A DNA stretch of 64,000 nucleotides from Natronospira bacteriovora. GTDB lineage: Bacteria > Pseudomonadota > Gammaproteobacteria > Natronospirales > Natronospiraceae. The stretch spans positions 124,001 through 188,000 of the forward strand of contig NZ_JAVDDT010000005.1 in assembly GCF_030848495.1 (NCBI RefSeq), written 5' to 3'. Positions within the stretch are counted from its first letter, which is position 1, and every line of letters starts with the position of its first letter. Positions 6,390-49,896 of the stretch are shown piece after piece. The position numbers were made by a program, and so were the translations under genes. The notes beneath the pieces were generated by a model. It was not told the origin of the DNA and searched no databases. It worked only from the letters and a program-made list of their open reading frames with translations.

Positions 6390-6546
6390 GCCCACTCCCC
6401 ATCTGGATTCACGGAATCAGCCGGCAATGTAGCAGCACCGGCCTGGCCCCCGCCAGCGAAGGAGGATGATTCACCTTGCAAAGGCGGGTACTATCGACCC
6501 ATCGATAGGCATCCGGCCCACCCGCCTCAGGGGAGCAACTTGCAGG

Positions 6547-8160
6547 GTGAGCGACACTGATCCACAGACTGAAATGTTCCGGCAGATGTTTCACGGCAGC
6601 CTGGCCATCAAGCTGCTGGTGGATCCCGATTCGGGCGCCATCCTGGATGCCAATTACGCGGCACTGCGGTTCTATGGATTCAGCCGCGAACAGCTCCTTG
6701 CACTGCGCGTCATTGATCTCAACACCCTGTCTGAGACTCAGGTTCGTGCCGAAATGCGGGCGGCCCGGGATGCACGACGGAACTGCTTCCAGTTCCAGCA
6801 CCGCCTAGCCGGCGGTGAAATCCGTGACGTGGAAGTCTACAGTTCACCCCTGACCCTCCAGGGCAAGACCCGTCTGCTGTCCATCATTCACGATGTCACC
6901 GCCCGTAACGATCAGGAACGGGAACTGAGTGTGTTGAGCGACATCGTCGCCAACCTGCCGGTGGGCATCTACCGCAGCCAGGTCGAGGACGGTGGCCGCT
7001 TTCTTTCCGTCAACCCGGAGATGGTTCGCCTCACCGAGGCGGAATCGGAAGCAGAACTGCTGGCCACACCCGCCTCCAGGCTGTATGCCAATGAAGGAGA
7101 CCGGGCGGCCTTCGTGGCGCGCATGAAGGCGGCCGATGACTGGCACAGCGAGAATGTGCGCCTGCGCACCCTGCGGGGGAATATTCGCACCTTCCGCGTC
7201 ACCGTTCGGCAACGCCAGGGGGAAGACGGCACGGCCTTCATTGACGGCATCACCGAAGACATCACCCGCCTGGAAGCAGCCGAGCAGTCCCGCGAGCAGC
7301 TTTACGAGATCATTGACGCCACCCCGGCCATTGTCGGCATCAGCGCCCCGGATGGCCGTCTGATCTATCTGAACCGGGCCGGGCGCCGCGTCCTGGGCCT
7401 GGGTCCGAACGATCCCCTGAGCGACTACCGCCCCCGCCGGGTGCATACCGAAGAATCCTTCCGGACCCTGGTTGAGGTTGCCCTGCCTACCGCCATGGAG
7501 GAGGGCTGCTGGGTCGGTGAGATGAGCTTCTCCAGCGCGAATGGCGAGCTCATCCCGGTTCAGACCACCCTGATTGCCCACAAGGATGCCGATGGCCAGC
7601 TGCTGCGCGTGTCGGCCGTTTCCATCGATGTCAGCTCCCAGAAGCGGCGTCAGCAGGTGCTGGAGCAGATGGCTTTCCGCGACTCCCTGACCGGTCTGCT
7701 CAACCGACGTGGCTTCATGCGTGCCCTCAAGGACACCCTCGACGATGCCCGCAGCCACCGCATGCCCCTCTCCATCGTCATGCTGGATCTGGATCATTTC
7801 AAACCCATCAACGACCGTCACGGCCATGACGTGGGCGACGAGATCCTGCGCAAGCTGGCCCCCCTCCTGTCCGGGCGACGACGCAGTGACGACCTGGTCG
7901 GCCGCCTGGGGGGCGAGGAGTTCGGCATCATCCTGCCGGGTGCAGAACGGGAGAATGCCGTCGCCATCGCCGAGGACATTCGGGAAAGGGTCGCCGCCAC
8001 GGAATTCCAGACCCGCGCCGGGACACTCCGGATCACCCTGAGTGGCGGTGTCACCAGCTTCACCGACCGTCGCGAGTCCGGCCCCACGCTGCTGCGCCGC
8101 GCCGACGCCGCCCTTTACGACGCCAAGGCCGCCGGCCGCAACTGCGTTCACTGGCGCTAG
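6547..8160 (+). CDS. PAS-domain diguanylate cyclase (active GGEEF, I-site present)
   Basis: A 537-residue soluble protein with three PAS-like domains (roughly residues 10-125, 130-245 and 250-365; the first contains DANYAALRFYGFSREQL) and a C-terminal GGDEF domain. The active-site motif is GGEEF at about residue 455, preceded by RSDD at the inhibitory I-site position, so the enzyme should make c-di-GMP from GTP and be product-inhibited. There is no signal peptide or membrane helix. The GTG at 6547 follows GGGGAG; an ATG at 6466 is open but has no ribosome site. Its last 125 coding bases occur again, perfectly, at 10342-10466, and the present stop (HWR-TAG) differs from the duplicate (HWRQ-TAA). 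Confidence 0.92.
   Translation: MSDTDPQTEMFRQMFHGSLAIKLLVDPDSGAILDANYAALRFYGFSREQLLALRVIDLNTLSETQVRAEMRAARDARRNCFQFQHRLAGGEIRDVEVYSSPLTLQGKTRLLSIIHDVTARNDQERELSVLSDIVANLPVGIYRSQVEDGGRFLSVNPEMVRLTEAESEAELLATPASRLYANEGDRAAFVARMKAADDWHSENVRLRTLRGNIRTFRVTVRQRQGEDGTAFIDGITEDITRLEAAEQSREQLYEIIDATPAIVGISAPDGRLIYLNRAGRRVLGLGPNDPLSDYRPRRVHTEESFRTLVEVALPTAMEEGCWVGEMSFSSANGELIPVQTTLIAHKDADGQLLRVSAVSIDVSSQKRRQQVLEQMAFRDSLTGLLNRRGFMRALKDTLDDARSHRMPLSIVMLDLDHFKPINDRHGHDVGDEILRKLAPLLSGRRRSDDLVGRLGGEEFGIILPGAERENAVAIAEDIRERVAATEFQTRAGTLRITLSGGVTSFTDRRESGPTLLRRADAALYDAKAAGRNCVHWR
8033..8157 (+). repeat. Copy 1 of perfect 125-bp direct repeat (3' end of GGDEF gene)
   Basis: By eye, these 125 bases are identical without a mismatch to 10342-10466. 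This copy is the live 3' end of the diguanylate cyclase gene. The two copies have the same orientation, 2309 bp apart, and bracket the CPBP protease gene and the low-GC secreted-protein gene. Confidence 0.95.
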
Positions 8161-8166
8161 GGAACC

Positions 8167-9168
8167 TCAGCCGCCAACCGACAAGCCGACGAAGAACAAG
8201 ACACTGCCATTGTGAAGAACATGAAGCAGTAACGGCGCCGCCAGGTGATGGGTTCGGGCAAAGAGATAGCAATGCAGAAGCGACAAAAGGAATATCGAGG
8301 TGTAGATGAACAGCCCTTCCACAAGATGGGCACTCAGATACTGGATATGGATGGCAACAAAGCCGGCACTGACGATCATTGCTCCCAGAATCGGGTAACT
8401 GGCCTCGAGAAAGCCCTTGTAGGCAATCCGCCTGAACAGAATTTCCTCGGCCAGGGGAGCCCCGAACACAAAGTAAAGCACCCAGAAAGGGTTCCCGAGA
8501 CCACCCTGAACGAAATTCGCCGCCGTATTCCACGGTGCATCCGATTCGGTCTGAAATGGCAGGGTGAGCAAACTGATGAGCGGCATCACCAGAAAGAACC
8601 AGCCCATAAAGACCAGGAGCGGCAAACCCAGCACCCGTGACCAGCTGCCTTTTCGCTCGAGTTGCGTCCGCTCATGGCGGCGCCACAGCAGGAAAAACAG
8701 CAACACCACGGCCACCCAGGCCAGGTGCCCATACTCTGGATGCCAGCCACCACCGATGAATCGACCACCACGGATGATCGCCACATCAGCGAGCGCGTCC
8801 AAATAGACCTCTGAATGAATGACGCCGGACTGCCAGCCACGGCTCAACCAGCCGGCTTCCGCCCATTGCACGACACAAGTCAGGCGGCTGTCCTCCGCCA
8901 GGGAGTGCCCTTCGGCACTGCTCACCTGCAGCCTGGCATCACTGCCGACGCGCTCCGACAAATGAACCTCAAGGTGGTCACAGTCATTGATACCCTGCCC
9001 GTGAACCTGAACGATCACTTCCCGCTTTTGATCCAGGACCAAGGCTGCCAGTACCGCGGTGGTACCCCAGTAGACCAGAAAAAGCATCGCCAGAATCGGC
9101 GCATACACCTTCAGAACAGCGAGCAAACCTCGCCGCCTCCCCCATTCTTCCACGATCAAAGCAACCAT
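8167..9168 (-). CDS. CPBP-family intramembrane metalloprotease with periplasmic insert
   Basis: The 333-residue protein has an N-terminal membrane helix, a periplasmic stretch of about 100 residues, then several membrane helices that form a CPBP (Rce1-like) domain. The catalytic motifs are visible: AEEILFRR (EExxxR) near residue 245, a histidine in FVAIHIQYL, and HVLHN near the C-terminus. Such glutamyl/metal intramembrane proteases process membrane peptides; substrates here are unknown. The ATG follows GGAGGGGGT, the same leader as the next accessory gene. The gene ends six bases from the convergent cyclase gene and lies inside the segment bracketed by the 125-bp direct repeat. Confidence 0.85.
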   Translation of the reverse strand: MVALIVEEWGRRRGLLAVLKVYAPILAMLFLVYWGTTAVLAALVLDQKREVIVQVHGQGINDCDHLEVHLSERVGSDARLQVSSAEGHSLAEDSRLTCVVQWAEAGWLSRGWQSGVIHSEVYLDALADVAIIRGGRFIGGGWHPEYGHLAWVAVVLLFFLLWRRHERTQLERKGSWSRVLGLPLLVFMGWFFLVMPLISLLTLPFQTESDAPWNTAANFVQGGLGNPFWVLYFVFGAPLAEEILFRRIAYKGFLEASYPILGAMIVSAGFVAIHIQYLSAHLVEGLFIYTSIFLLSLLHCYLFARTHHLAAPLLLHVLHNGSVLFFVGLSVGG

Positions 9169-9330
9169 ACCCCCTCCACGCGCGGGAAAATCAACACATC
9201 ACGCCAGCACCATAGTCCGCTAGATTCAATAAATGCGCCGACCGAAGTTTGGGCACATAAACCACCCATATAAAAAACCTCGACGGCGCATCATAAATAT
9301 TCAAGCCAGATCACAAAGGAACTCTATTCA

Positions 9331-9966
9331 TTACGGCCTTTCAAGATCTGGCATAACCTCAACGCACTTGTGGCACTCATAACCGCCTTCTCCACAAATC
9401 CCACACCACTCTGATCGGATCCCACAATTAAAGCCGTGATAACATACTTTCAATGCGTTAGCCCTGCACTGGTGCGTGCGCCACAAGCAATAACTCCCAC
9501 CTACCGTTCCGCAGACAAGCAACCCCCAAGGATTCAAACACGGCACGGGCACCGCCGAGCTCTCCAGAACCAACTGATCCTGAAGACGAGCTCGCAAGCC
9601 CGCATCCTCCATAAACTCTCTAGCGGGAAATTGATACTCGACCCCGGAGATGTCGACATTCAAGACGCCTGAAACCACGTCAATTTCATAGACAAACGAA
9701 AGACCGTCACGAGTAGCCTGACCATTGATCACAGCGACTGATAGAAGCTGACTAAGTTCATCATCACACTCAGGAAGATCATCAGGATCCACAGATTCCG
9801 GCACATCTGGAACAATCAAATAGGACTTTGGATCTTGTGATTTTGCTTTGAGTATTGCGGAGTAATATTTTTCAAACTGCTCCACTGACTGATTCTGGGA
9901 TGCGCTTGCGGACACACTAAGCGCATAAAGAAAGAGCCCTATGATCGACACGATTTTGAGCTTCAT
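9331..9966 (-). CDS. Cys-rich secreted protein of unknown function, low GC
   Basis: A 211-residue protein with a clear Sec signal peptide (cleavage likely near SASASQ, residue 22). The mature part starts as an acidic helical region and ends in a Cys-rich segment: about 11 cysteines, ten of them in the last 75 residues, including EWCGIC and ECHKC, so disulfides or metal binding are plausible. I recognise no family. A strong ribosome site (GGAGGGGGT) directly precedes the ATG. Codon use and base composition are visibly more AT-rich than the neighbours, which points to recent acquisition. It lies within the 2.3-kb segment bracketed by the 125-bp direct repeat. Confidence 0.75.
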   Translation of the reverse strand: MKLKIVSIIGLFLYALSVSASASQNQSVEQFEKYYSAILKAKSQDPKSYLIVPDVPESVDPDDLPECDDELSQLLSVAVINGQATRDGLSFVYEIDVVSGVLNVDISGVEYQFPAREFMEDAGLRARLQDQLVLESSAVPVPCLNPWGLLVCGTVGGSYCLWRTHQCRANALKVCYHGFNCGIRSEWCGICGEGGYECHKCVEVMPDLERP

Positions 9967-10341
9967 ACCCCCTCCTTTTTTTCAAGTGGAACTGGTTGCT
10001 TGAAAAAAATATCGAAACACCATTTCGTACACAATCTTTTGCGCACTTAGAAAAAGATATAAATCTGAAACACCAAAATCTATAACGAAATTTCACTTGA
10101 AGTGAAATTAAGGATATTCCTACTCATGCGAACAAGTTTTTCTTACATCGGAACACTGACTAGCGCTTGAGACTGCCACGAAATTACAGTGCAGACCTTG
10201 TTGACCCGATCACCGAAAGCAAATCTCAACGCCCTTCCTATTCATGGGGCGCATCGCTCATGTGACATAACACTGTTCTCGAAATTGACCAAGCGAATCC
10301 TCCGCTAACTGCAGCATTCGACCTTCGCGCACTCGCCTCGG
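9967..10341. other. AT-rich intergenic stretch upstream of the Cys-rich gene
   Basis: About 375 bases of low-GC DNA without a convincing reading frame. It contains an A/T-rich region that should hold the promoter of the Cys-rich gene and one perfect palindrome (10089-10109). No transposase remnant or tRNA is visible. Confidence 0.6.
10089..10109. promoter_or_regulatory. Perfect palindrome, candidate operator
   Basis: AATTTCACTT-G-AAGTGAAATT: ten-base arms around a single central base, 120 bases upstream of the Cys-rich gene start. The symmetry fits a dimeric repressor or activator site; with a one-base loop it is a poor RNA hairpin. No regulator is encoded in the cassette. Confidence 0.5.
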
Positions 10342-10472
10342 TCACCCTGAGTGGCGGTGTCACCAGCTTCACCGACCGTCGCGAGTCCGGCCCCACGCTG
10401 CTGCGCCGCGCCGACGCCGCCCTTTACGACGCCAAGGCCGCCGGCCGCAACTGCGTTCACTGGCGCCAGTAA
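10342..10472 (+). pseudogene. Duplicated 3' fragment of the diguanylate cyclase gene
   Basis: The first 125 bases match 8033-8157 exactly and encode the last ~41 residues of the GGDEF domain, then continue CAG TAA (ending HWRQ-stop). It has no start codon or catalytic motif, so it is a remnant. Its junction with the nfi gene (stop 15 bases further) looks like the ancestral convergent arrangement, with the 2.3-kb cassette inserted between. Confidence 0.85.
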
Positions 10473-10487
10473 GTTACCGGGTCCGAT

Positions 10488-14023: not shown

Positions 14024-14626
14024 GTGGCCCGCCCCGACAACGATTTCTGGCGCAGCAATCTGTTCGCCGGCCTGCTGTTTCAGGCGGCCCTGATCCCCCT
14101 GGCCCTGTTCCTGGCCTGGCCGCTGGGTCTGCCGCTGCTGGGCGCCATGCACCTGTCCTGGGCGCTGCTGTTTCAGACCCTGGCAGGAACAGCCGCCATA
14201 TTCCTTCTCTACGGCCTGCTGATGCCCTTCACCCCCTCCTGGGGGCGGGAGCTGGAGCAGAAGGTCCGCAACATGCTGACGCAGCTCTTTCGCCACCGCA
14301 GCATCCACTGGGCCCTGCCCCTGTCCATCCTGGCCGGCGTGGGTGAAGAGCTGCTGTTCCGTGGTGTACTTCAGCAGGCTCTGGCGCAGTGGCTGAACGC
14401 CCCCGTGGCCATCCTCGCCACCGGCCTGCTGTTCGGCCTGGTTCATGCCATCAGCCGAGCCTATTTCATCGTCGCCACCCTGATGGGCATCTACATGGGG
14501 CTGCTCTTTCACTGGAGCGGCAACCTGCTGCTTCCCATTCTCATCCACGCCCTCTACGACTGGCTGGCCATTCTCTACTACCGCAGCGCCCGCCTCAGGC
14601 TGCTGCGCCGGAAGGTGCTTCCGTGA
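14024..14626 (+). CDS. CPBP-family intramembrane metalloprotease
   Basis: A 200-residue membrane protein with five to six helices and the CPBP motifs GEELLFRG (EExxxR), a histidine in FGLVHAIS and the C-terminal ILIHALYD. It is the second CPBP protease in the window but is shorter and lacks the periplasmic insert of the one at 8167-9168. The GTG start at 14024 follows AAGGAA. Its stop codon overlaps the aceK start (GTGA), so the two are co-translated; no link between CPBP proteases and AceK is known to me. Confidence 0.87.
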   Translation: MARPDNDFWRSNLFAGLLFQAALIPLALFLAWPLGLPLLGAMHLSWALLFQTLAGTAAIFLLYGLLMPFTPSWGRELEQKVRNMLTQLFRHRSIHWALPLSILAGVGEELLFRGVLQQALAQWLNAPVAILATGLLFGLVHAISRAYFIVATLMGIYMGLLFHWSGNLLLPILIHALYDWLAILYYRSARLRLLRRKVLP

Positions 14627-16362
14627 AGGTCGCGACCGCACCAGCCTCGCCGGCGGTGCAAAAGGCCGCTACCCGCATCCTGCGCGCCTTCGACGATTAC
14701 AACGCTGCCTTTGCCGACATCAGCCGTCGCGGCCGTCGGCGATTTGAGGCGGGCGACCGGGCCGGCATGCAGGCGGATGCCATGGAAAGGGTTCAGCTCT
14801 ACGACGACAGCATCCGAGAGTGCCTGGCCCTCCTGGAAACGGAACTTGGCAGCCGGATTCTTTCGCGCACGTTCTGGAAGGCGCTCCGCAATCACTATCG
14901 CGAGCTCATTGAAGAGCTGCCGGATTCCGAACTCTGCAAGACCTTCTTCAACAGCAGCAGCCGCCGCCTGTTCCGCACCCGGGGTGTGGACGGCGCAGTG
15001 GAATTCCGGGCGCTGGAGGTGGAGCCCAGCACACGTTCCTCCGAACCACCGGCCATTCATCACTTTGCCATCCCCGACAGCAGCCAGAATGAACTGCACC
15101 GCTTATGGGACCGGGTCCTGGCCAGCCTGCCATTCCGCCTCGCCTGGGGCGACCGACCGGGGGATGTGGACAGACTGGCGCGGCGCCTCGGTCGGGTACT
15201 GGAAGATGACGACAAGGGATGGCCGGTGGCCATGGAGTTCATGGACACGGTTTTCTACCGGGACGGACGTGCCTGGCTGGTGGGACGGCTGTTCACCGAA
15301 AAGGATTACCGCCCCTGCGTGGTGGTTCTCAACCGCCACGCCGATGGTATCCGGGCCGAGGCCCTGTTAATCGATCGACGCTCGCTGAGCATCGCTTTCG
15401 GCTATACCCACAACTATTTTCTCGCCGATCTGCCCCGGGTTTCCGATGCCACCCTCTTCCTGCGCACCCTGCTGCCCCACAAGCCGCTGGACGAGCTCTA
15501 CACCGTGCTTGGGCGCATCAAGCAGGGAAAGACCGAGCGCTACCGGCATTTCTTCCGGCATCTGAATGCGCATGCCGATGAAAAGCTGGAGCTGGCGGAA
15601 GGTACGCCAGGACTGGTCATGGTGGTGTTCACGCTGCCCTCCTATCCGCTGGTGTTCAAGGTGGTGCGTGACCGTTTCGGGCCGGAAAAACCTTTCAAAC
15701 GCGAACAGGTATTCAAACAGTATCAGATGGTCTTTCGCCATGAACGCGGCGGACGTCTCGTGGATGCCCAGCCCTTTCGCGAACTGCGCTTCCCGCTCCG
15801 GCAGATGAGCGAGGCGCTGTTGAAGGAACTGCAATCAGACTGCCAGCAATCCATCCGGATCGACGGTGACTCGCTGATCGTGAACCACTGCTATGCTGAA
15901 CGGCGGGTACGCCCCCTGAACCTCTACCTGCGCGAGGCCGGCCCGCAGGAACAGGCAGCGGTCCTGAGTGATTACGGGCAGGCCCTCGAGGATCTCTCCT
16001 GCGCCGACATCTTTCCCGGGGACCTGTTACTGAAGAACTTCGGTGTCACGGGAACCGGTCGCGTGATTTTCTACGACTACGACGAACTGCGTCTGCTCAG
16101 GCATTGCCATTTCCGGCGCATACCGCCCGCCCGATCCGAGGAAGAGCTGATGAGCGCCGAACCCGGCTTCGCCGTCAACCCTGGCGACGTGTTTCCCGAG
16201 CGTTTTCCGGACTTCATGGGCCTGTCCACCGAGCAACTGGACGTAATCCGGCTGCATCATGCCCATATCTTCGACGCGGCCTGGTGGCGGGATCAGCGGG
16301 AAAAGGTAATGGCAGGGGGAGTGGATCACCCCCCCTACCCTTTGGGGTGCCGTCTTGTTTGA
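14623..16362 (+). CDS. aceK: Isocitrate dehydrogenase kinase/phosphatase
   Basis: At 579 residues it matches AceK length. The C-terminal kinase-like region carries ADIFPGDLLLKNFGVT and VIFYDYDELRLL, the conserved catalytic/metal-binding segments of AceK, and FTLPSYPLVFKVVRDRFGPE with the ATP-site lysine. AceK reversibly phosphorylates isocitrate dehydrogenase and so decides between the TCA cycle and the glyoxylate bypass. The aceBA genes that accompany it in enteric bacteria are absent here; instead it is coupled (GTGA overlap) to a CPBP protease. GGAAGG precedes the GTG start. The TGA stop lies within the first unit of a heptamer repeat array. Confidence 0.95.
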   Translation: MKVATAPASPAVQKAATRILRAFDDYNAAFADISRRGRRRFEAGDRAGMQADAMERVQLYDDSIRECLALLETELGSRILSRTFWKALRNHYRELIEELPDSELCKTFFNSSSRRLFRTRGVDGAVEFRALEVEPSTRSSEPPAIHHFAIPDSSQNELHRLWDRVLASLPFRLAWGDRPGDVDRLARRLGRVLEDDDKGWPVAMEFMDTVFYRDGRAWLVGRLFTEKDYRPCVVVLNRHADGIRAEALLIDRRSLSIAFGYTHNYFLADLPRVSDATLFLRTLLPHKPLDELYTVLGRIKQGKTERYRHFFRHLNAHADEKLELAEGTPGLVMVVFTLPSYPLVFKVVRDRFGPEKPFKREQVFKQYQMVFRHERGGRLVDAQPFRELRFPLRQMSEALLKELQSDCQQSIRIDGDSLIVNHCYAERRVRPLNLYLREAGPQEQAAVLSDYGQALEDLSCADIFPGDLLLKNFGVTGTGRVIFYDYDELRLLRHCHFRRIPPARSEEELMSAEPGFAVNPGDVFPERFPDFMGLSTEQLDVIRLHHAHIFDAAWWRDQREKVMAGGVDHPPYPLGCRLV

Positions 16363-16430
16363 GTGCTGAGTGCTGAGTGCTGAGTGCTGAGTGCTGAGTG
16401 CTGAGTTCTGAGTTCTGAGTGCTGAGTGCT
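16361..16430 (+). repeat. Heptamer tandem array (GAGTGCT)10
   Basis: Ten uninterrupted seven-base units, eight GAGTGCT and two GAGTTCT. The array begins inside the aceK stop codon. The complementary form (CTCAGCA/CTCAGAA) ends the gene at 17374, and shorter arrays lie at 60349 and 60696. Confidence 0.95.
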
Positions 16431-17260: not shown

Positions 17261-17379
17261 CTCAGCACTCAGCACTCAGCACTCAGCACTCAGCACTCAG
17301 CACTCAGCACTCAGAACTCAGCACTCAGAACTCAGAACTCAGAACTCAGAACTCAGAACTCAGAACTCAGAACTCACCA
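17261..17379 (-). repeat. Heptamer tandem array (CTCAGCA / CTCAGAA), 16-17 units
   Basis: Reading on the plus strand: seven CTCAGCA units, then a mix, then a run of CTCAGAA, ending in degenerate CTCACCA. On the minus strand it reads (T)GAGTTCT/(T)GAGTGCT and starts within the stop codon of the HExxH-propeller-barrel gene, mirroring the aceK array. Confidence 0.95.
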
Positions 17380-20259
17380 CTCATACCGCAAATTGACCCA
17401 GGCCCGGGTGCGATCCGGCAGGGGGTTGTCCTGAATCAGTGCGACTCCGGCCTCCAGGCGCACACCCCTGAGTTCGGGCAGGGGCAGGCGGGTATCCGTC
17501 AGGCCACCGCCAATCTCGAAACCCCGCAGAACCAGCCAGTCGCCTTCATCGGCGCTCTCCTCGCCCATGCGGTGGCGCCGATAGAAGAGCCGCGCGGTGT
17601 TGCTGCGGTTGCGCAGGAAGAAGGATTGACCCTCGTACTCCTGCCCGATCAGCAATCCGAGCGGAACGGCGGGCTCGAAGATTCTCTCCGGCTGGGTTCG
17701 GGCGGTACTGGTCAGGCCGGGCTGGCCACCGAGAACCAGCCGTTCCCCACTGTTGCCGGCGTCATCCAGGCTGACCTGAGACAGGGCAAGGCCCGCCATC
17801 CCCTGTCTTCCCGCGGCAAGGCTGAAGTGGCCCCGGCGAAGCGACCAGCTCTCCCCTTCCGTGCGGCCTTCGACCGCACTCAGGCCCAGTCCGGCCTGGC
17901 TGCGGCGCGAGCCACGCTGACGCTGCCATTGGCTGCCGGCCTGCAGCCAGGACCAGTCACGCCGGTAGTCGTCGCCCGCCAGGCTCACCTCGCTCAGGGC
18001 CAGACCAGCGGACACACCATTGCGGAAACGCCCGGCACGGCGATCGGCTTCCAGCCCCATCAGCAGGCCGGTCTGTCGCTGGCGCATCGCCTCGGTGTCC
18101 GCGGCATCCCGCTGCTGCGACGGGTCACTGACCTGGTGAAATGCCGCCGCCGTAAGGTCGATCGGCCAACCTCGCCAGCTGCCGGCCAGCAAGGCCCCAT
18201 TTTCGCTCTCCCGAGATGACAGCGATGCGGCAGCCAGCCAGTCCGTACGCCCGATCAGGTCGCCCCCCTTCACGCCAAGATCCAGGGCCGTTTCCGAACG
18301 GGTCCAGCGCCCCGACATCAGGCCGGTCGCAAATTGCGGGCCACGGCCGTATGAACGGGCGGGTGCGTCACTGGGATCGGGGGCGCGCAACTGGAGGGGC
18401 ACCGGCTGGCGGCCAATGGGTGAGGCCGTCTCCATACTTTCCAGTGGCCACCCGGGCCGGATATCGCTGCCGTTTTCCACCCGCATCAGATCGTGGCCGG
18501 AGGGACCGGGCTGCAGATAAAGCAAGGCATCCGTACCCGGTATCGGCTGGGGGGCCAGGGCGGCCTGGACGGATACCGTCACCGGCTGACTGTCGGCCAT
18601 GCCTTCCTGCCAGCGATCCACGCCGATATAACCGAATCGGCCACGACTGAAATACAGGACGCCATCCGCTGACCAGGCCGGTTGGGCAAGGAAGCTCGAC
18701 GGCCCGGCATCCAGGGCCAACGCCTCCTCACCGCTGTTCAAATCCTTCAGGCGCAGGGACCAGTGGCCCGCAGCATGCGACAGATAGGCGACGACCTGGC
18801 CATCAGGATGGATGCGCGGCTGATCATGCACCAAATTGGTTGAGGCTTCCGAAAGGGACTGGATGCGACCGTCGGCAAGATCCACCCGAACCAGTTCCGA
18901 GTAGCCATGACGATAGCGCACGGCCACCGCCCAGCGGCCGTCCGGAGCCGGGTCGGCACGATGTAATCGCCCGCCCTCTGTGATTCGCTCCACCCGGTTC
19001 CTGTCCAGATGCCAGCGAAACAGATCGGAGCTGGCAAAGCCGTGCGCATCGGTGCTGAGTCGAGTGAAGAGAATGCTGTTCTCGTCGATCCAGCGCGGGT
19101 CATGCACATCACGGCCTTCCGGTGCCGGCAGGCTGTGCAGTGCCTCGCGCGGCAGTGAACGGGGACGAACCGCCATGACATCGTCCGGATCCTTCTCCAC
19201 CTTCTTCTCTTCGGCTTCCCGCCACTTCTCGAAGCGTTCCGCATTGTCATCCAGTCGATAGACTCGCAGCCCGGCCGGCTCGTTGTTCGAATACTCCACC
19301 ACGGCCACCCGGTCGCCCGCGGGCGAGACGGCGGGTGCGCCCAGGCGGTGCCCGAATGCCTGCCAGAGCTCACCGCGCACTTCCCTGTCCGCGAACACCG
19401 ACTCGGCCCTGAGGGCCGCATGAACGGTTTCTGCCATGAAGCGCTGGTACAGCTCGGCGGGTGAGGCACCGAACACACCGCCAAAGGCCTCATTGAAATC
19501 CCGCCGGGTATGGGCCGTCTGTCGGGCCCAGACATCACGAAATGCCTGGGGGCTTTCCCGCTCGGCCAGCCACTCGAAGTAAGCGGAACCCACCAGATAG
19601 GCGCGCAGGCGGGAATCCCAGTCCTGACCCAGGGTACCGCTCAACTGCCCATAGTTGGGCAGACGGCCCTCACGTGCCCATTGGCGAATGAGCGAAGCCC
19701 GCAGGTCGCTGTTGGGCCGCCCGCTGCCGGTCAGTTCACCCTCGAGCCAGGTGGCATAGCCTTCGATCACCCACATGGGAGACTGCATCAGTGGCATCAC
19801 CGCGGCCGGAAGCCACAACTGCCCGCGAAACCGGTCAAAGGACCGCCGCACGGGACGACTGAGATGGGCCAGATGAACGTGCTCGTGAATCAGCAGCAGT
19901 TCCGGCCAGTCGCTGTAATTACCGATCACGGAATCCGCGGCCGGTGGTGTTGTAAACAGCAACATGCGGGCGCGCCCCGTCAGAGGCAGGGCCATGCCAT
20001 TGGGCTGATTGAAGGGGTCGGCAATGATCACATCCACCGGGCTGTCCGGGGTGAATCCGACCCATTCATGCACTTCATCAGCCACGGCTTCGGCCCGAGC
20101 CGCAGCCTTACGGGCCCAGCTTTCCAGTTCGCCGGGGAAATGCACACGGAAGCGCTCCGTCTCAAGGGTCTGCCAGTCAGCCGATGGCGGCGCCGCCAAC
20201 ACCATGCCCGGCCATAGCAGCAGGAACAGCAACCAGCGGCCGTTTACGAACACCTTCAA
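17374..20259 (-). CDS. HExxH metalloprotease / beta-propeller / outer-membrane barrel protein
   Basis: The 961-residue protein has a signal peptide (about 1-22), then a gluzincin-like peptidase domain with HEHVH at residues 125-129 and a downstream WVIEGYATWLE supplying the third zinc ligand (E166). The middle (about 300-640) has repeating TolB/WD40-like blades (SPAGDRVAVVEYS, AAPDGRWAV-type). The last ~300 residues show alternating beta strands and end in an aromatic Trp, as in outer-membrane barrels. A cell-surface or periplasmic protease tethered by its own barrel is the inference. The TTG start has AGGGGG seven bases upstream and overlaps the preceding hydrolase stop. A paralogue lies at 38253-41078. 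Confidence 0.8.
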   Translation of the reverse strand: MKVFVNGRWLLFLLLWPGMVLAAPPSADWQTLETERFRVHFPGELESWARKAAARAEAVADEVHEWVGFTPDSPVDVIIADPFNQPNGMALPLTGRARMLLFTTPPAADSVIGNYSDWPELLLIHEHVHLAHLSRPVRRSFDRFRGQLWLPAAVMPLMQSPMWVIEGYATWLEGELTGSGRPNSDLRASLIRQWAREGRLPNYGQLSGTLGQDWDSRLRAYLVGSAYFEWLAERESPQAFRDVWARQTAHTRRDFNEAFGGVFGASPAELYQRFMAETVHAALRAESVFADREVRGELWQAFGHRLGAPAVSPAGDRVAVVEYSNNEPAGLRVYRLDDNAERFEKWREAEEKKVEKDPDDVMAVRPRSLPREALHSLPAPEGRDVHDPRWIDENSILFTRLSTDAHGFASSDLFRWHLDRNRVERITEGGRLHRADPAPDGRWAVAVRYRHGYSELVRVDLADGRIQSLSEASTNLVHDQPRIHPDGQVVAYLSHAAGHWSLRLKDLNSGEEALALDAGPSSFLAQPAWSADGVLYFSRGRFGYIGVDRWQEGMADSQPVTVSVQAALAPQPIPGTDALLYLQPGPSGHDLMRVENGSDIRPGWPLESMETASPIGRQPVPLQLRAPDPSDAPARSYGRGPQFATGLMSGRWTRSETALDLGVKGGDLIGRTDWLAAASLSSRESENGALLAGSWRGWPIDLTAAAFHQVSDPSQQRDAADTEAMRQRQTGLLMGLEADRRAGRFRNGVSAGLALSEVSLAGDDYRRDWSWLQAGSQWQRQRGSRRSQAGLGLSAVEGRTEGESWSLRRGHFSLAAGRQGMAGLALSQVSLDDAGNSGERLVLGGQPGLTSTARTQPERIFEPAVPLGLLIGQEYEGQSFFLRNRSNTARLFYRRHRMGEESADEGDWLVLRGFEIGGGLTDTRLPLPELRGVRLEAGVALIQDNPLPDRTRAWVNLRYEW

Positions 20260-24273: not shown

Positions 24274-26448
24274 CTATTTGCTGTCCAGTCGGTGCACACC
24301 GTCCCAGTCCGGATCCGGGGCCGCGTACATGTAGTGACGACAACGGGCCAGGAAAATCCGGCGCAGTGGGTCGTCCTCCGGGAGGCGCCCCCAGGCCCGG
24401 GCCGCACCTTCCCAATCCCTGGCCAGGTAGGCTTCCCAGGCCGTTTCCGTCACATCGCGGATCGCCTCGGCGCCGGCCCGGCGCCGCGGGTCATCCTCGC
24501 CGCTTGCCAGGGGCCGCCAGATGGCAATGGCCTTCTCCTTGCCCTTGACCCGCACCCGGTCCACCAGGGCACAGATCACATCATCACCGGCCGCGGCCCG
24601 GGTGGTTTCGGAAATCAGCACCGGGCAGTGGTAATGGCTGGTCAGGCCCTCGATTCGGGACGCCAGATTCACGTTGTCCCCGATCACAGTGTAGTCAAGC
24701 TTGCGATCGGAGCCGATGTTGCCCAGCACCACCGAGCCGGTGTGCACGCCAATTCCGGTATTCAGGGGTGGCCACCCTTCCGCAATTAACTGCTGATTGA
24801 GCTGCTCGCCACAGCGCTGCATGGCCAGGGCTGCCCGCACCGCCCGCCGTGCATGATCCTCCACCCGGATGGGTGCACCCCAGAAGGCCATGATGGCGTC
24901 GCCAATGAACTTGTCCAGGGTGCCTTCCTGCTCGAAGATGGCCTCGGTCTGCACCGAGAGATAGCGGTTGAGCAGCGACACCACCTGCTCCGGCGGATAG
25001 TTCTCGGAAATGCCGGTGAAGCCCCGGATATCGGAAAACAGAATGCTCATCTGTTCCGCCGTACCCACCTCCGCGCTCAGGTGCTGGTCATAGCGATCGA
25101 CCACCTCGGCCAGCACGGCCGGCGACACATACTGGGACAGCATGCGCCGGACCCGGCGCTTGTCCCGGCCCTCGGTGACCGACACGTAGGCCAGGCAGGC
25201 CACGCCACTGAGAACCACACTGCCCAGAGGCGCGGCCATGTCCAGCACCCAGTTGAGGGAGAAGGCCCACCAGGCCGCCGACACATGAAGCAGAATGAGC
25301 ATCAGGGGCAGCAGGAGCTGCAGGCTGACTCGGCCGGTCATGAAAGCCGCCGCCGCCAGCAGGGCGTAGACAAGGACCAGCAGACCGGTGACCTGGCTTG
25401 TGACCGGACGCAGAAAGTCACCCTCCAGCAGGTTGCCAGCCAGGCTCATGTGGATTTCCACTCCGGGGGTGCGGCTGGACAGGGGGGTGTGCTTGATGTC
25501 GTGCAATCCCACGGCCGAACCACCAATGAACACGATGCGGTCACGGAACTCTTCCGGATCAATGATCATGCGTTCCGGCTCGCCCTGGTGCAGGCGTTGC
25601 AGGCTGTCGAATACACCGCCGATGGAATAGCTGGGTATCTCGCCGTAGAAATTGGCCAGAACCCGGCCATCCTCGCCCACGGGCACACGCCAGTCACCCA
25701 GCTCGAGATGGCGGCCGCTCTGGCGGGCCGCTTCCAGGCCCAGATCCCGCAGGGCAGTGACCGAAAGGGCGGGAAAGATGTCATCCCGATAACGGAAGAA
25801 GGGCCGTACGCGACGATAAACGCCATCGTCATCGGCATCCAGACCCACCGCCCCCAGCCCGGCCGACATCTGGTGCAGGCCGTCGATGGGAAGGTGAACG
25901 CTGTTGCGCCCGAAGTCCGTGATGCCCTCCACGCCGTTGAGTGCGTGTTGCTGCCGGACGGACTCGGGCAGAGGGGGCGCCTCCACTACCTCCTCGCCTT
26001 CATCCGGCTGTTCGGTGATGATCTGAATGGCATGGTGCACATTGCCGGCAGCGGCCGTGGCCATCATCAGGGCCTGATCCTCCGCGCTGGGCTCATGTCG
26101 CCCGCCCGATTCCAGCCACTGATTCTCGGTCAGCAGGATATCGAAGACCACGGCACGAGGATGGCCAAGGGAGAGAAAGTCGAGCAGGTCGGCATACACC
26201 GAGCGGGGCCAGGGGAAACGGCCGAGGATCGGATTGAGCTGGGCCAGTGAAGCCTCGTCAATCAGGATCAGGGCCAGCTCATCGGGAATCGCCGCATCGG
26301 CCCGCAGCGCCTTGACCCGGGCGTCATAGCTGATCCATTCCAGTCGCTGCAGGCCGCCGCTACGCTCCACGGCCATGACCAGCAGAGCGCTGATCAAGCC
26401 AATCAGCAGCAGCCAGCGCAACTGTTTTCTGTGTCGGGACAACTGCAT
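24274..26448 (-). CDS. CHASE2-domain class III adenylate cyclase
   Basis: The 724-residue protein has an N-terminal membrane helix, a large periplasmic CHASE2 sensor (about 35-340, VFIGGSAVGLHDIKHTPL is typical), three further membrane helices, then a class III cyclase catalytic domain. Metal-binding Asp residues are in FSDIRGFTGIS and FIGDAIMAFWG, the adenine-specifying Lys in LDKFIGD, and the transition-state Asn/Arg in IGDNVNLASRIEG, so an active adenylate cyclase is expected. A ~70-residue helical tail follows. It is first in the six-gene minus-strand operon and lies divergently to a cyclic-nucleotide-binding EAL gene. Confidence 0.92.
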   Translation of the reverse strand: MQLSRHRKQLRWLLLIGLISALLVMAVERSGGLQRLEWISYDARVKALRADAAIPDELALILIDEASLAQLNPILGRFPWPRSVYADLLDFLSLGHPRAVVFDILLTENQWLESGGRHEPSAEDQALMMATAAAGNVHHAIQIITEQPDEGEEVVEAPPLPESVRQQHALNGVEGITDFGRNSVHLPIDGLHQMSAGLGAVGLDADDDGVYRRVRPFFRYRDDIFPALSVTALRDLGLEAARQSGRHLELGDWRVPVGEDGRVLANFYGEIPSYSIGGVFDSLQRLHQGEPERMIIDPEEFRDRIVFIGGSAVGLHDIKHTPLSSRTPGVEIHMSLAGNLLEGDFLRPVTSQVTGLLVLVYALLAAAAFMTGRVSLQLLLPLMLILLHVSAAWWAFSLNWVLDMAAPLGSVVLSGVACLAYVSVTEGRDKRRVRRMLSQYVSPAVLAEVVDRYDQHLSAEVGTAEQMSILFSDIRGFTGISENYPPEQVVSLLNRYLSVQTEAIFEQEGTLDKFIGDAIMAFWGAPIRVEDHARRAVRAALAMQRCGEQLNQQLIAEGWPPLNTGIGVHTGSVVLGNIGSDRKLDYTVIGDNVNLASRIEGLTSHYHCPVLISETTRAAAGDDVICALVDRVRVKGKEKAIAIWRPLASGEDDPRRRAGAEAIRDVTETAWEAYLARDWEGAARAWGRLPEDDPLRRIFLARCRHYMYAAPDPDWDGVHRLDSK

Positions 26449-26679
26449 GACATCCGCCCGGAACCCTCAAGGAATGGCTTCAGCATAAAGGAATACGGCC
26501 GCGGCGGCCTCCCCCTGCATGGGGGAGCCATGCCACCCCCTCCGGACGGGGGCTTGACGCGGACCTCCGCGAGGAGTGAGCTGTACACCGCAGCCGCGTG
26601 CTACAGGCCCAGGGGAGCTACACTGGTGCAAGGACGTGTCCACGCCGACACACGAAGGGATACGACAAGAGGGGAAGAC
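26449..26679. other. Divergent promoter region with two G/C hairpins
   Basis: The 231-base gap between the cyclase and the CNB-EAL gene must hold both promoters. Two short inverted repeats of C5/G5 type lie near 26509-26527 and 26536-26552. I could not fix a convincing -35/-10 pair. Confidence 0.4.
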
Positions 26680-27879
26680 ATGAGTGAGCAGGTACCGCAC
26701 AAGGTGTTTGGCGCGGGCGAGCGCATATTCGAACGGGGGGATGCCGGCCAGGAGGCCTACCTCATCCAGAGGGGCAATGTGGAGATTTCCACCGACCAGG
26801 GGGGCAAGAAGGTGGTCATCGCCAATCTCGGGCCCGGCGAGGTCTTCGGCGAACTGGCCCTGATCAGCCACCAGGCGCGCACAGCCTCGGCCATGGCGAC
26901 GGAAGAGACCAGCACCATGGTGATCACCCTGGATCGCCTGCAGTCGGCCATCGACCGGGCCGATCCCCTGCTCCAGACCCTGCTACGCGGCAATCTGGGA
27001 CGCTTCATCTGGACCCAGCGCTTCATGCTCCAGCACGCCTCGCCCCAGTCCGGGGACGGTTCCCTGGAACGCCAGGCGCGGCGGGAGGAAGAAGTGGAGG
27101 CCGACATCAAGCGGGGCATTCACTCCCGTGAGTTCGAGCTCTTCTACCAGCCCATCATCGACCTGCGCGAAGGCTGGGTGGCCGGATTCGAGGCCCTGAT
27201 GCGCTGGCGTCACCCGGAAAAGGGAACCGTCTCCCCCGGGGAGTTCATTCCGGTGGCCGAAGCCACCGGGCAGATCGTCCCCATGGGCTGCTGGGCCCTG
27301 GAAGAAGCCCTCAATGCCCAGAAACGTTTTCAGGAAATCGTCGAGCCCCATGGCCGCCCGCCCCTGTTCATGAGCGTGAACGTCTCGGGGCGCCAGCTGC
27401 TGGAGCTGGATGAAATCGAGAAACTGGGCGCGGTGGTGGCCCGTTCCGGGATGGATCCCCAGTACATCAAGCTGGAGATCACCGAATCCCTGCTGGTGGA
27501 TGAACCCATGCACGCCGCCGTGGCGCTGGAGCAGCTGCGCAACAAGGGAGTACGCCTGGCCATTGATGACTTCGGCACCGGCTACTCCAGCCTCAGCTAC
27601 CTGCATCTCTTCCCGCTGGATACCCTCAAGATCGACCGCTCCTTCGTCTCGGACATGGTTCACGACCCCCGCCGGGAACGCATCGTGCGCGCCATCTCCC
27701 GCCTGGCGCGGGATCTCGACCTGAACATCATTGCCGAGGGGGTGGAGAACGACGAGGAAATGGCCAGCCTCAACCGCTTCGAATGCGATTACGTCCAGGG
27801 CTTCCACCTGGCCCGCCCCCAGACCGCCGACCAGATCGCCGAACTGCTGGCCGGCAAGCCGGTGTTTCCAAGGCCCTGA
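26680..27879 (+). CDS. Cyclic-nucleotide-binding EAL phosphodiesterase (copy 1)
   Basis: The 399-residue soluble protein has a CRP-like cyclic-nucleotide-binding domain (about 5-120) with an intact phosphate-binding cassette FGELALISHQARTASA (Glu58, Arg67), and a C-terminal EAL domain. The EAL motif reads FEALMRW (171-173), followed by ITESLLV, DDFGTGYSS, IDRSFV and IIAEGVEN, so the metal- and substrate-binding residues are present and it should hydrolyse c-di-GMP. The ATG follows GGGGAAG. It is divergent from the adenylate cyclase gene and convergent with a close paralogue across a repeat block. cAMP or cGMP as ligand is inferred. Confidence 0.9.
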   Translation: MSEQVPHKVFGAGERIFERGDAGQEAYLIQRGNVEISTDQGGKKVVIANLGPGEVFGELALISHQARTASAMATEETSTMVITLDRLQSAIDRADPLLQTLLRGNLGRFIWTQRFMLQHASPQSGDGSLERQARREEEVEADIKRGIHSREFELFYQPIIDLREGWVAGFEALMRWRHPEKGTVSPGEFIPVAEATGQIVPMGCWALEEALNAQKRFQEIVEPHGRPPLFMSVNVSGRQLLELDEIEKLGAVVARSGMDPQYIKLEITESLLVDEPMHAAVALEQLRNKGVRLAIDDFGTGYSSLSYLHLFPLDTLKIDRSFVSDMVHDPRRERIVRAISRLARDLDLNIIAEGVENDEEMASLNRFECDYVQGFHLARPQTADQIAELLAGKPVFPRP

Positions 27880-28520
27880 GGTTTGGGACCAGGAAATGGA
27901 CACGAAATGAAAGACGGAAAGAGTATTAGCCACAGATGAACACAGATAAACGCAGATGTTGGGCCGTGCTTGACGGGGTGCCGTGCGGCTTCGGCGGGGC
28001 CGTGCTTGCGGGTGGCTCGGGGATTTTGACCACGAAATTAACACGAGATGGGCGCGAAATAAGACCTGGCACGGTGGGTGCTGACGGCCCGCTGTGGGAG
28101 CGGCTTTCAGCCGCGATTGCAATCTTTCGGTTGGCACGCCGCTAAACCGATACCCCCTGTAGGCGCGGATTCATCCGCGCAATGGCTTGAATTCGACGTT
28201 TGATTCTCTAATTGGGATCGGTGCAATCCGTGATGCACCTCAATGAATGGTGGGGCGTCGGATTTGGGCCATTGCGCGGATGAATCCGCTCCCACGCTGC
28301 CTATAGCCACCCCCCGTCACATCCGCAGGCACGGCCCCTCCGAAGCAGCACGGCGCCCCCCACGCACGGCCCAACATCTGCGTTCATCCGTGTTCATCTG
28401 TGGCCAATAATCTTTTGTCTTTTTATTTCGCGTCCATTTAGCGTCCATCTCGCGGCTAAAGGTTTTTAAGGTTTTCATCTCGTGTGCATTTCGTGTCCAT
28501 CTCGTGGTCCAGCCTTCCCC
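27880..28520. repeat. Composite palindromic repeat block 1
   Basis: This 640-base gap has no gene. From the left it carries ACGAAATG-type oligomers, TTAGCCACAGATGAACACAG, a REP-like hairpin (GTGGGAGCGGCTTTCAGCCG) near 28098, the 148-bp element at 28153-28300, then CACGGCCCCTCCGAAGCAG, and the complements of the first modules in reverse order. The whole reads as a giant imperfect palindrome between the 3' ends of the two convergent CNB-EAL paralogues. Confidence 0.9.
28153..28300 (+). repeat. ~148-bp element bounded by inverted REP hairpins, copy 1
   Basis: It starts CCCCCTGTAGGCGCGGATTC and ends with the inverted form GGATGAATCCGCTCCCACGC; each end is itself a small palindrome. The core (TTTGATTCTCTAATTGGGAT onward) is nearly identical to copies at 35035-35184 and, inverted, 41304-41452. 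The arrangement resembles a BIME/REP doublet. Confidence 0.85.
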
Positions 28521-28524
28521 GCCG

Positions 28525-29784
28525 TCACCAACGCGCCTGCCGCATCTGCAGCAGGCGGCGGGCTTCGCGGAAAGAGGCGGGGCGGGACATGAGATAACCC
28601 TGACCGCTGTCGCAGCCCACTTCCCGCAGGGCCGAGAGCTGGGTGTTGCGTTCGATTCCCTCGGCAATGGTCTCCATGCCCATGTCGCGGGCCAGACCAA
28701 CGATGGCGCGCACGATGCGATAACTCTTCGGATCCCGTCCCATGGTGGCAACGAAAGTCTGGTCAATCTTGAGGGCATCCAGCGGGAACTCGTGCAGATA
28801 GCTGAGGCTGGAGTAGCCGGTGCCGAAATCATCCAGGGCAATGCGAACGCCATACTCCCGCAGGAGTTGCAGCGCTACCCGGGCATGGGCCGGATCGTCC
28901 ACCAGCAGGGATTCGGTGACCTCCAGCTTGATCAGGGCGGGATCAATGCCCGAGGCCTTGATGGTGTCGCCCAGGCGATCGATCTCCTGCAGCTCGAACA
29001 GTTGCCGACCGGAGATGTTCACGCTCATGAACAGGGCATCACGACGCGGTTCGCTGGTCAGGGAGTCGCGGACTTCGGCCAGGGCTGTCAGCGGTGGACG
29101 CGGCCCGGCGCCGGCATTGCCCACCAGCAGCTGGAAGGACTTGAGGGCGTCGAGGGCCTCCTTGAGTACCCACTGGCCGATGTCGACGATCTGCCCGGTG
29201 CGCTCGGCCACGCCAATGAAGCCATCGGGGTACACCAGCCCCCGAGTGGGATGACGCCAGCGCAGGAGGGCCTCGAAACCCACCGTCCAGCCCCCTTCGA
29301 GGGTGATGATGGGCTGGTAATGGAGTTCGAACTCCCGCTGCGCCATGGCCCGGCTGATTTCCTTTTCCAGGGCCAGATCCGCCCTGGCCTGGTGCTCCAG
29401 GCTCTGACCGCCATTGAGGCTGTCGGCGTTCTGAAGCATGAACTGCTGGGTCCACTGGAAGCGCCCGAGGTTGACCTGCAACAGCTTGCGCAGGAGGGGG
29501 TTGGCCTCGCGCAGGGCCCGTTGCAGCTGGGCCGCATTAATGCTGACCAGTTCCACGTCGCGCAGGGCCGTGGCCGTGGCCGTTCGGGCCTGTCGATTGA
29601 TCAGGGCCAGTTCGCCAAAGAGATCACCGCTGCCAAGACGGGCGATGACCACCTTGCGGCCGGCCCGCTCGGTGGATATCTCCACGGAACCCTGTTCTAT
29701 GAAATAGGCGTTGTCGCCCTCATCCCCCTGGGCAAAGATTTCTTGACCCGCGGCAAATCGCTTGCGCGGCAACTCCTCGGCCAT
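28525..29784 (-). CDS. Cyclic-nucleotide-binding EAL phosphodiesterase (copy 2)
   Basis: A 419-residue paralogue of the protein at 26680-27879 with the same order: cyclic-nucleotide-binding domain (cassette FGELALINRQARTATA) and EAL domain (FEALLRW, VTESLLV, DDFGTGYSS, IDQTFV, TIAEGIER). Catalytic residues appear intact. It differs by an insertion of about 28 residues (GAGPRPPLTALAEVRDSL...) before LFMSVNISGRQ. The ATG at 29784 has GGGGAG upstream; the frame is open 11 codons further but without a site. It follows purT by 98 bases on the same strand and is convergent with copy 1. Confidence 0.9.
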   Translation of the reverse strand: MAEELPRKRFAAGQEIFAQGDEGDNAYFIEQGSVEISTERAGRKVVIARLGSGDLFGELALINRQARTATATALRDVELVSINAAQLQRALREANPLLRKLLQVNLGRFQWTQQFMLQNADSLNGGQSLEHQARADLALEKEISRAMAQREFELHYQPIITLEGGWTVGFEALLRWRHPTRGLVYPDGFIGVAERTGQIVDIGQWVLKEALDALKSFQLLVGNAGAGPRPPLTALAEVRDSLTSEPRRDALFMSVNISGRQLFELQEIDRLGDTIKASGIDPALIKLEVTESLLVDDPAHARVALQLLREYGVRIALDDFGTGYSSLSYLHEFPLDALKIDQTFVATMGRDPKSYRIVRAIVGLARDMGMETIAEGIERNTQLSALREVGCDSGQGYLMSRPASFREARRLLQMRQARW

Positions 29785-29882
29785 GCCATTTCTCCCCGAA
29801 AACGGTGGGTCGGGCACCGCTCATCGCCCGGCGCTCTGCATTCAGCTTAGCAGGATGGCCTGCGGCTGACAGCCGGCCGCGA

Positions 29883-31764: not shown

Positions 31765-31793
31765 AAGGCCGGTCACATGACCGGCCTTTTTTT
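31765..31793 (+). terminator. Intrinsic terminator of the small barrel gene
   Basis: AAGGCCGGTCA pairs with TGACCGGCCTT across a tight loop and is followed by a run of seven T. It reads in the plus direction, just after the stop at 31742. Confidence 0.92.
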
Positions 31794-31796
31794 GGG

Positions 31797-32226
31797 ACCA
31801 CGAAATGGACACAAGATAAACACGAGATAAAACCTTGAAAACATTTAGCCGCGAGATGCACGCGAAATGGACACAAGATAAAAAGAGAAAAGATGATTAG
31901 CCACAGATAAACGCAGATGAACACAGATTGGTCTGTGGCACGGCGGGTGCTGACCGCCCGCTGTGCCAGGCCCTATTTTGTGTCCATTTCGTGTTTATTT
32001 CGTGGTCCAGCCTTTCATGCCCTCCGCAAGCACGGCCCCTCCGAAGCAGCACGGCCCCTCCGAAGCAGCACGGCCCCTCCGAAGCAGCACGGCCCCTCCG
32101 AAGCAGCACGGCATCACTCCACGCACGGCCCAACATCTGCGTTCATCTGTGGCCAATATTTTTTATCTTTTCATCTAGCGTCCATTTCGCGTGCATCTCG
32201 CGGCTAAATGTTTTTTCGTGGTCCAA
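31797..32226. repeat. Composite palindromic repeat block 2
   Basis: The gap between the small barrel gene and pepN (convergent) carries ACGAAATG-type oligomers, TTAGCCACAGATAAACGCAG, a degenerate REP, four 19-bp tandem units, and then the reverse complements of the first modules, ending four bases before the pepN stop. The block lacks the 148-bp element. No gene is visible. Confidence 0.88.
32031..32106 (+). repeat. Tandem repeat, 4 x 19 bp
   Basis: Four perfect units of CACGGCCCCTCCGAAGCAG. Single copies of the same sequence, some with AATCAG in place of AAGCAG, occur in repeat blocks 1, 3 and 6, so this is a local amplification of a shared module. Confidence 0.95.
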
Positions 32227-34892: not shown

Positions 34893-35456
34893 GTAAATGA
34901 GACCACGAAATGCACACGAAATGCACACGAAATGCACACGAGATGTGACCTGGCACGGCGGACGCTTATTGCCCGCGTAGGAGCGGATTTATCCGCGATG
35001 ACAATCCATCGGTTGGCACGTCAAATGACCCATGCCCCCTGTAGGCGCGGATTCATCCGCGCAATGGCTTGAATTCGCCGTTTGATTCTCTAATTGGGAT
35101 CGGTGCAATCCGTGATGCACCTCAATGAATGGTGGGGCGTCGGATTTGGGCCATTGCGCGGATGAATCCGCGCCTACAGCGGGGCATTAGATACCGGCAT
35201 AACAACCGAGGGATTGTCATCGCGGATAAATCCGCTCCCACGCTGCCTATAGCCACCCCCCCGTCACATCCGCAGGCACTGCCCCTCCGAATCAGCACGG
35301 CGGCTCCCACGCACGGCCAAACATCTGCGTCCATCCATGTTCATCTGTGGCCAATAATCTTCTGACTTTTTATTTCGCGTCCATCTCGCGGCTAAAGGTT
35401 TTCTTAGGTTTTCATCTCGTGTGCATTTCGTGTCCATTTCGTGGTCCCACCCCACC
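34893..35456. repeat. Composite palindromic repeat block 3
   Basis: The 590-base gap between pepN and the MMPL gene (same strand) holds ACGAAATGCACACGAAATG repeats, a GGAGCGGATTTATCCGC hairpin, the 148-bp element (35035-35184), an inverted REP near 35220-35245, the CCCCTCCGAATCAGC module, and the complementary CATCTGTGGCC and TTTCGTGGTCC modules, ending at the MMPL stop. No gene is visible. Confidence 0.88.
35035..35184 (+). repeat. ~148-bp element bounded by inverted REP hairpins, copy 2
   Basis: It begins CCCCCTGTAGGCGCGGATTC and ends GATGAATCCGCGCCTACAGC, so the two ends are good inverted copies. The core differs from copy 1 by about one base (GAATTCGCCG against GAATTCGACG) until the right end. 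Confidence 0.9.
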
Positions 35457-41089: not shown

Positions 41090-41632
41090 AAAAAACGAAC
41101 CACGACTTAAACCTTTAAAACATTTAGCCGCGAAATGGACACAAAATGCACACGAGATAAAAAGACAAAAGACTATTTTTTGCCACAGATAAACACAGAT
41201 GGACACAGATCAAATCCTGGCACGGTGGGTGCTGACGCCCCCCTGTGGGAGCGGCTTTCAGCCGCGATGACAATCGACCGGTTGGCACGCCGGTGTGGTG
41301 AAACCCCCTGTAGGCGCGGATTTATCCGCGCAATGGCCGGAATCCGACGTCCCGCCATTTAATGAGGTGCATCACGGACTGCAATGTTCCCATTAGAGAA
41401 TCAAACGGCGAATTCAAGCCATTGCGCGGATGAATCCGCGCCTACAGCGAGGCCATAGATGATGGCGTGCCAACCAAACAATTGAAATCGCGGCTGAAAG
41501 CCGCTCCCACAGGGGGGGCGTCAGCGCCAGCCGTGCCAGGGATTGATCCGCGTGCATCCGTGTCCATCTGTGGCCAAATGATTTTTTGTTTTTTATCTCG
41601 TGTCCATTTCGTGTCCATTTCGTGGTCCCAGC
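41090..41632. repeat. Composite palindromic repeat block 4
   Basis: The gap between the second propeller-barrel gene and the aminotransferase gene (same strand) contains ACACGAGATAAA oligomers, CACAGATAAACACAGATGG, REP hairpins at about 41245-41275 and, inverted, 41485-41515, the 148-bp element in reverse orientation (41304-41452), and the complementary modules up to TTTCGTGGTCCCAGCC at the aminotransferase stop. It is the most symmetrical of the blocks. No gene is visible. Confidence 0.9.
41304..41452 (-). repeat. ~148-bp element bounded by inverted REP hairpins, copy 3 (inverted)
   Basis: The core is the reverse complement of copies 1 and 2 (GAGAATCAAACGGCGAATTC near 41395), with some divergence in its left half. 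Both ends keep the GTAGGCGCGGAT / ATCCGCGCCTAC inverted hairpins. Confidence 0.85.
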
Positions 41633-41634
41633 CG

Positions 41635-49712: not shown

Positions 49713-49862
49713 TTGCCGGCACCTACAGGGGGTTTCAAAAGGCGGGCGTGCCAGCCAATAGATCGCAATCGCGGCTGAAAGCCGCTCCCACAGCGGGCAA
49801 TAAGCGCCCGCCGTGCTAGAGACCAATCTGTGTCCATTTCGCGTGCATCTCGCGGCTAAATG
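49713..49862. repeat. Composite repeat block 5 (short)
   Basis: The gap between the transglycosylase and TonB-family genes (convergent) has CCTACAGGGGG, one REP hairpin in inverted form (CGCGGCTGAAAGCCGCTCCC at 49770-49790) and a single TTTCGCGTGCATCTCGCGGC module. It is a reduced version of the other blocks. Confidence 0.85.
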
Positions 49863-49896
49863 TTTTGCCTTTGCCGTTTCACGATTCCCTCGTCAC

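Follow-up and report, generated by a model that had tools for sequence, protein, structure and literature searches.

Probable integrase-free acquisition of a 2.18-kb foreign-looking segment behind a diguanylate cyclase gene in Natronospira bacteriovora

Results and discussion

In a stretch of 64,000 nucleotides from the genome of Natronospira bacteriovora (contig NZ_JAVDDT010000005.1, positions 124,001 to 188,000; hereafter the window, whose numbering is used unless another contig is named), the stop codon of a diguanylate cyclase gene is immediately followed by a segment of some 2.18 kb, and the end of that gene is repeated on the far side of the segment. We consider it probable, at roughly two chances in three, that this arrangement goes back to a recent acquisition of foreign DNA that took place without an integrase, with the 128-bp duplication being a by-product, or scar, of the joining. 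The features of the locus, from which we infer the order of events and the route, are as follows:

6466–8160, plus strand: PAS-GGDEF diguanylate cyclase gene, intact, GGEEF motif present, ending CVHWR-TAG (Pfam GGDEF, E 3.5e-43)
8033–8160, plus strand: inner repeat copy, the last 125 coding bases and the TAG of the live cyclase gene; exact over 8033–8157
8161–10341, no strand assigned: inserted segment of about 2181 bp (2184 with TAG assigned to it), 51.6% GC, occurring once in the genome
8167–9168, minus strand: CPBP/Rce1-like intramembrane protein with EEILFR, FVAIH and HVLHN motifs (PF02517, E 5.8e-13)
9331–9966, minus strand: open reading frame for an orphan Cys-rich protein of 211 aa with a signal-peptide-like N-terminus
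9967–10341, no strand assigned: AT-rich upstream part of the insert, 375 bp, 43% GC, without a long open frame
10342–10469, plus strand: outer repeat copy, a non-functional fragment of the cyclase 3' end in which CAG replaces the stop and is followed by TAA
10488–11165, minus strand: nfi, endonuclease V (PF04493, E 6e-73; NF008629 above cut-off; 62% identity to G002)

The duplicated gene end

The last 125 coding bases of the cyclase gene (8033–8157) recur at 10342–10466, a spacing of 2309 bp, with all 125 positions identical, just as the preliminary description of this DNA had reported; at such a length chance is not a concern. When a single mismatch is allowed, the repeat grows to 128 bp (127/128; 8033–8160 against 10342–10469), the sole difference being that TAG (8158–8160) in the inner copy is aligned to CAG (10467–10469) in the outer one. 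Between the outer 125-bp copy and the nfi stop codon there is a gap of 21 bp (10467–10487), and the 15 bases given previously are correct when counted from the TAA of the outer copy. The right edge of the repeat is also the left edge of the cassette, at the cyclase stop codon, and its left edge falls at an arbitrary place inside the cyclase gene. Across all 15 contigs of the genome (2.998 Mb), the search returned the two copies in the window and no third one, the next-best match reaching 75% over 60 bp. With 0 differences in 125 bp, the upper 95% bound on the divergence between the copies is 2.4%: this identity indicates that the duplication is young and stems from the host gene or from a near-identical donor.

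Polarity of the copies and the empty site

Three near relatives with an orthologue of the cyclase were compared (G001, G002 and G003; 56–60% amino acid identity). The codon that follows the last shared arginine is TAG in G001, TGA in G002, TAG in the inner copy and CAG in the outer copy; as T is present in the inner copy and in both congeners, and C in the outer copy alone, T is likely the ancestral base at this position and the inner copy the one that has retained the ancestral stop. The outer copy, which does not code any more, has probably undergone a single transition, so that it now reads on to the adjacent TAA. The polarity put forward in the preliminary description, in which the outer copy represents the gene end as it was and the inner stop is the altered one, is thus probably reversed: both G001 and G002 stop at the codon of the inner copy. 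An ancestral stop in the inner copy would place the insertion point directly behind the stop codon, so that the insert spans 8161–10341 and the repeat, in which the TAG at 8158–8160 is best counted, measures 128 bp. Otherwise the first codon of the foreign DNA would have to be an in-frame stop by luck, for which the chance is about 3 in 64.

An unoccupied site, which had been proposed as a check, is present in G002, a member of the same genus. Here the order is OmpA-like protein, sodium/solute symporter, cyclase, nfi, hydrolase, second cyclase and resident CPBP gene, which is the order of the window with synteny on both sides, except that cyclase and nfi are directly adjacent with overlapping ends and neither of the cassette genes is present; what is compared here is another species (60% amino acid identity in the cyclase) instead of a conspecific strain. 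No host gene around the insertion is missing relative to G002, and hence no deletion is seen. In G001 the symporter and the cyclase are present and the downstream sequence is different. Since nfi is not detectable in G001 and G003, both of which are drafts, with the G003 contig ending just past the cyclase, the evidence that cyclase and nfi were ancestrally neighbours comes from G002. A search of genome contigs with the cyclase alignment, near records being left out, returned only distant cyclases. With the site empty in G002, and with the cassette genes not found in the samples of relatives, class and phylum save for distant CPBP matches, the simplest reading is that the window's lineage gained the segment.

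The insert and its two genes

The GC content of the insert (51.6%) is below that of every 2181-bp window sampled from 847 kb of the same genome (mean 62.4%, sd 2.5), with the flanking cyclase and nfi genes at 64% and 66%, respectively. The 375 bp at its right end, at 43% GC, fall within the lowest 0.04% of same-size windows from this 847-kb sample. The segment thus appears foreign-looking both by its unusual GC content and by its orphan or near-orphan genes. The CPBP gene stands tail to tail with the cyclase gene, the insert starting within a few bases of its stop codon, and in the samples of relatives, class and phylum it has only weak, distant matches. A second CPBP/Rce1-like gene, resident at 14024–14626 (plus strand) and found in the same place in G002, is no close kin of the cassette gene: the possibility that the latter is a duplicate of the former was rejected at 24% identity (E 0.05). 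The Cys-rich protein has no significant match in Pfam, NCBIfam, PADLOC or PDB, with hits in Pfam, PHROGs and PDB at chance level; its gene has no relative in the relatives, class, phylum, viral, phage and plasmid collections searched, and fold prediction from the single sequence gave an unusable model (pLDDT 38). No Rfam element was detected at the site, and the DNA preceding the outer copy bears no trace of a second, decayed cyclase gene.

Some CPBP proteins process secreted peptides or protect against them. Together with the secreted-looking Cys-rich neighbour, this makes it conceivable that the cassette encodes a secreted product, here a protein outside any matched family, and its partner for maturation or self-protection.

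Other repeats in the genome

The 847-kb scan also encountered other long repeats, which belong to dispersed repeat clusters or to a tandem array associated with a tRNA. Within the window, the dispersed intergenic clusters occupy 28046–28518, 31793–32214, 34928–35455, 41175–41636, 49719–49866 and 50754–51077; in them, palindromic motifs of a REP-like kind (CGCGGATGAATCCGCGCCTACAG, AATCGCGGCTGAAAGCCGCTCCCACAG) occur together with ATCTGTGTCCATCTGTGG units, in either orientation. One of them contains a perfect 19-bp tandem repeat of 4.4 copies (AGCACGGCCCCTCCGAAGC; 32029–32112), and another is flanked by convergent paralogues with cNMP-binding and EAL domains (26431–27879, plus strand; 28525–29817, minus strand), whose sequences match as an inverted repeat over 296 nt (73%). 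Outside the window, a pair of 590-bp direct repeats, about 91% identical and 4.7 kb apart (G000 C5:207322–207909 and 212013–212599; L159/L160), lies within dispersed repeat clusters and could permit loss of the intervening DNA. A tandem array at G000 C2:155909–156444 is built on a 213-bp unit that starts with a tRNA-like 3' end (TTCGAGTCCCTGGCGGCCCACCA), with an exact overlap of 323 bp. Tandem arrays of 7 bp (TGAGTGC/CTCAGCA), again in both orientations, are present at 16360–16430, 17261–17383 and 60348–60379 and also in or near several contig ends (C5, C6, C7, C8 and C13).

Route of acquisition

The most concrete route to the observed arrangement is a RecA-dependent single crossover. End joining would have circularised a donor piece in which the cassette came after the 3' end of the cyclase, and this circle would have crossed over with the resident gene end, yielding the order gene, repeat, cassette, repeat and nfi with the reading frame kept. 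The direct repeat found at both ends of the insert would then equal the homology shared by the two molecules, and with this homology ending at the stop codon, the meeting of the repeat's right edge with the cassette's left edge is to be expected. The same structure has been seen in experiments with E. coli: gene-end duplications were present in 56 of 60 clones and measured 109–950 bp in the 14 that were sequenced, and the explanation given is that the incoming DNA, after cleavage and partial degradation, closed into a circle again and entered by a RecA-dependent crossover (Amarir-Bouhram et al. 2011, PMC3240628). The two cases share an integrase-free entry and a direct gene-end duplication that brackets foreign DNA and corresponds to the homology; they differ in that the E. 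coli system employed a laboratory plasmid with engineered homology, whereas the donor molecule here is postulated. A donor carrying this joint was sought in the plasmid, phage, viral and genome collections and not found, and the crossover route is put forward as a candidate. ComEC is encoded in the genome; as it is widespread, its presence is no more than compatible with DNA uptake. No Ku was found in the genome and Ku-type end joining is therefore not indicated. Alternatively, a single illegitimate event could have duplicated the host's own 128 bp, through a staggered break or through sister-chromosome joining that captured a foreign piece: this would take one step and would need no donor already carrying the joint between cyclase and cassette. 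The data do not separate the two routes, and we put them forward together as integrase-free acquisition.

Alternative origins

The arrangement also has the geometry of a gene-end attachment site, and the segment could accordingly be a remnant or cargo of a site-specific element, whose tyrosine recombinase inserted it at the cyclase 3' end, whose attachment site restored the gene and whose recombinase has since been lost or lies elsewhere. This is the case that prophage e14 exemplifies in the icd gene of E. coli K-12: there, too, a duplicated 3' end (165 bp) stands on both sides of the insertion and the upstream copy completes the gene (PMC11148124). Nine genes of the phage integrase family exist elsewhere in the N. 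bacteriovora genome, and the XerC/XerD housekeeping pair is presumably among them. However, while e14 carries its own integrase gene, the segment contains the CPBP and the orphan gene and no recombinase, the lack of an integrase having been noted before, and the contig of the window has no integrase-family match, all such genes being on other contigs. The absence of a third copy of the site from the genome also speaks against an element, as do the short distance, a few bases, between the start of the insert and the stop codon of the CPBP gene and the lack of element-like ends on the insert. In e14 the ends differ at 12 of 165 positions, as opposed to 0 of 125 coding positions here (Fisher p = 0.0015, with the single example being a thin yardstick), and a divergent gene-end copy brought in by an element is not found, the lone difference at the stop codon being apparently derived in the outer copy. 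The repeat and the cassette were sought in viral, phage and plasmid collections and neither was found. An origin from a site-specific element is, on this evidence, rather unlikely, and the likeness to integrating elements drawn in the preliminary description is weakened by the identity of the copies, the missing third site and the lack of a mobility gene; of its proposal that an insertion replaced and restored the gene end, the insertion between cyclase and nfi and the complete 3' end are supported, and the element-type replacement is not. Transposition is not supported either: there is no transposase in the insert, its terminal inverted repeats score below the shuffle mean with none above the shuffles, and the duplication measures 125–128 bp as against the short target duplication of a transposon or IS.

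Two further explanations concern the second copy itself. The assembler could have misplaced this copy, or the entire insert, through an error of assembly or binning: the assembly is a draft of 15 contigs, several of which break at long 7-bp arrays, a limit typical of short reads, from which it was probably made, and an exact repeat of 125 bp is near the length at which short-read graphs turn ambiguous. The contig ends showed no overlaps beyond the 7-bp arrays that would hint at the assembler's k-mer. Against this, arrays of up to 123 bp were resolved within the window (17261–17383), the junctions of the two copies differ in unique sequence, the copies themselves differ at one base within 128 bp and the cyclase and nfi neighbours match G002. 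An assembly error is hence an unlikely source of the second copy, and the same holds for a misplaced insert. Two separate events might also be envisaged, in which the cassette was cleanly inserted behind the cyclase and repair later added a 128-bp copy of the gene end, as templated filler, on the nfi side of the cassette. Templated filler of about this length occurs in break repair, and the ancestral stop codon of the inner copy means that the left junction could be native. Two events would nevertheless be one more than is required by integrase-free acquisition, and they leave unexplained why the copied piece ends exactly at the left boundary of the cassette; we regard this sequence of steps as improbable.

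The same 847 kb were also scanned for signs of a recurring mechanism, and no other exact repeat of at least 55 bp duplicating the 3' end of a long gene was found: as the sole repeat of this kind, the duplicated cyclase end suggests one event rather than a system, and the evidence is for a single event. We assign a very low probability to a bolder reading, by which the cassette and its gene-end copy form a transmissible module without an integrase, passing between strains as a small circle, entering by RecA crossover at the cyclase 3' end and always restoring the gene, with the secreted Cys-rich product accompanied by a matching CPBP protein for maturation or self-protection.

Comparison with related systems

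Integrase-free acquisition has further parallels. In homology-facilitated illegitimate recombination, known from S. pneumoniae, A. baylyi and P. stutzeri (in PMC3240628), one-sided homology likewise brings in short foreign DNA without an integrase, but usually with a deletion of similar size and 3–10 bp of microhomology and with no duplication. Small variable genome segments also consist of short accessory DNA between conserved neighbours and have been attributed largely to illegitimate recombination; 10–18% of them are flanked by direct repeats, although most of these repeats are shorter than 30 bp (PMC2884548). The displaced effector-immunity modules of the V. cholerae T6SS resemble the present case in placing accessory gene pairs at the 3' side of a gene without an integrase, and differ in that a divergent module displaces the old effector, whereas the duplicated end here is the same allele (PMC5361080).

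Implications

The repeat makes a loop-out of the cassette by recombination possible, and such a candidate event is plausible: a precise loss of the cassette is predicted. The event is of an already known kind, and the locus is a tidy natural instance of it: one can read off the two junctions, the unoccupied site and the direction of the one difference. Scars of this kind are easily mistaken for the attachment sites of mobile elements, and the divergence between the copies, as in e14/icd, offers one way to distinguish them. If integrase-free acquisition is correct, the locus would show cleanly, in a natural setting, how a chromosome can gain a small piece of accessory DNA without an integrase and with the neighbouring gene left intact.
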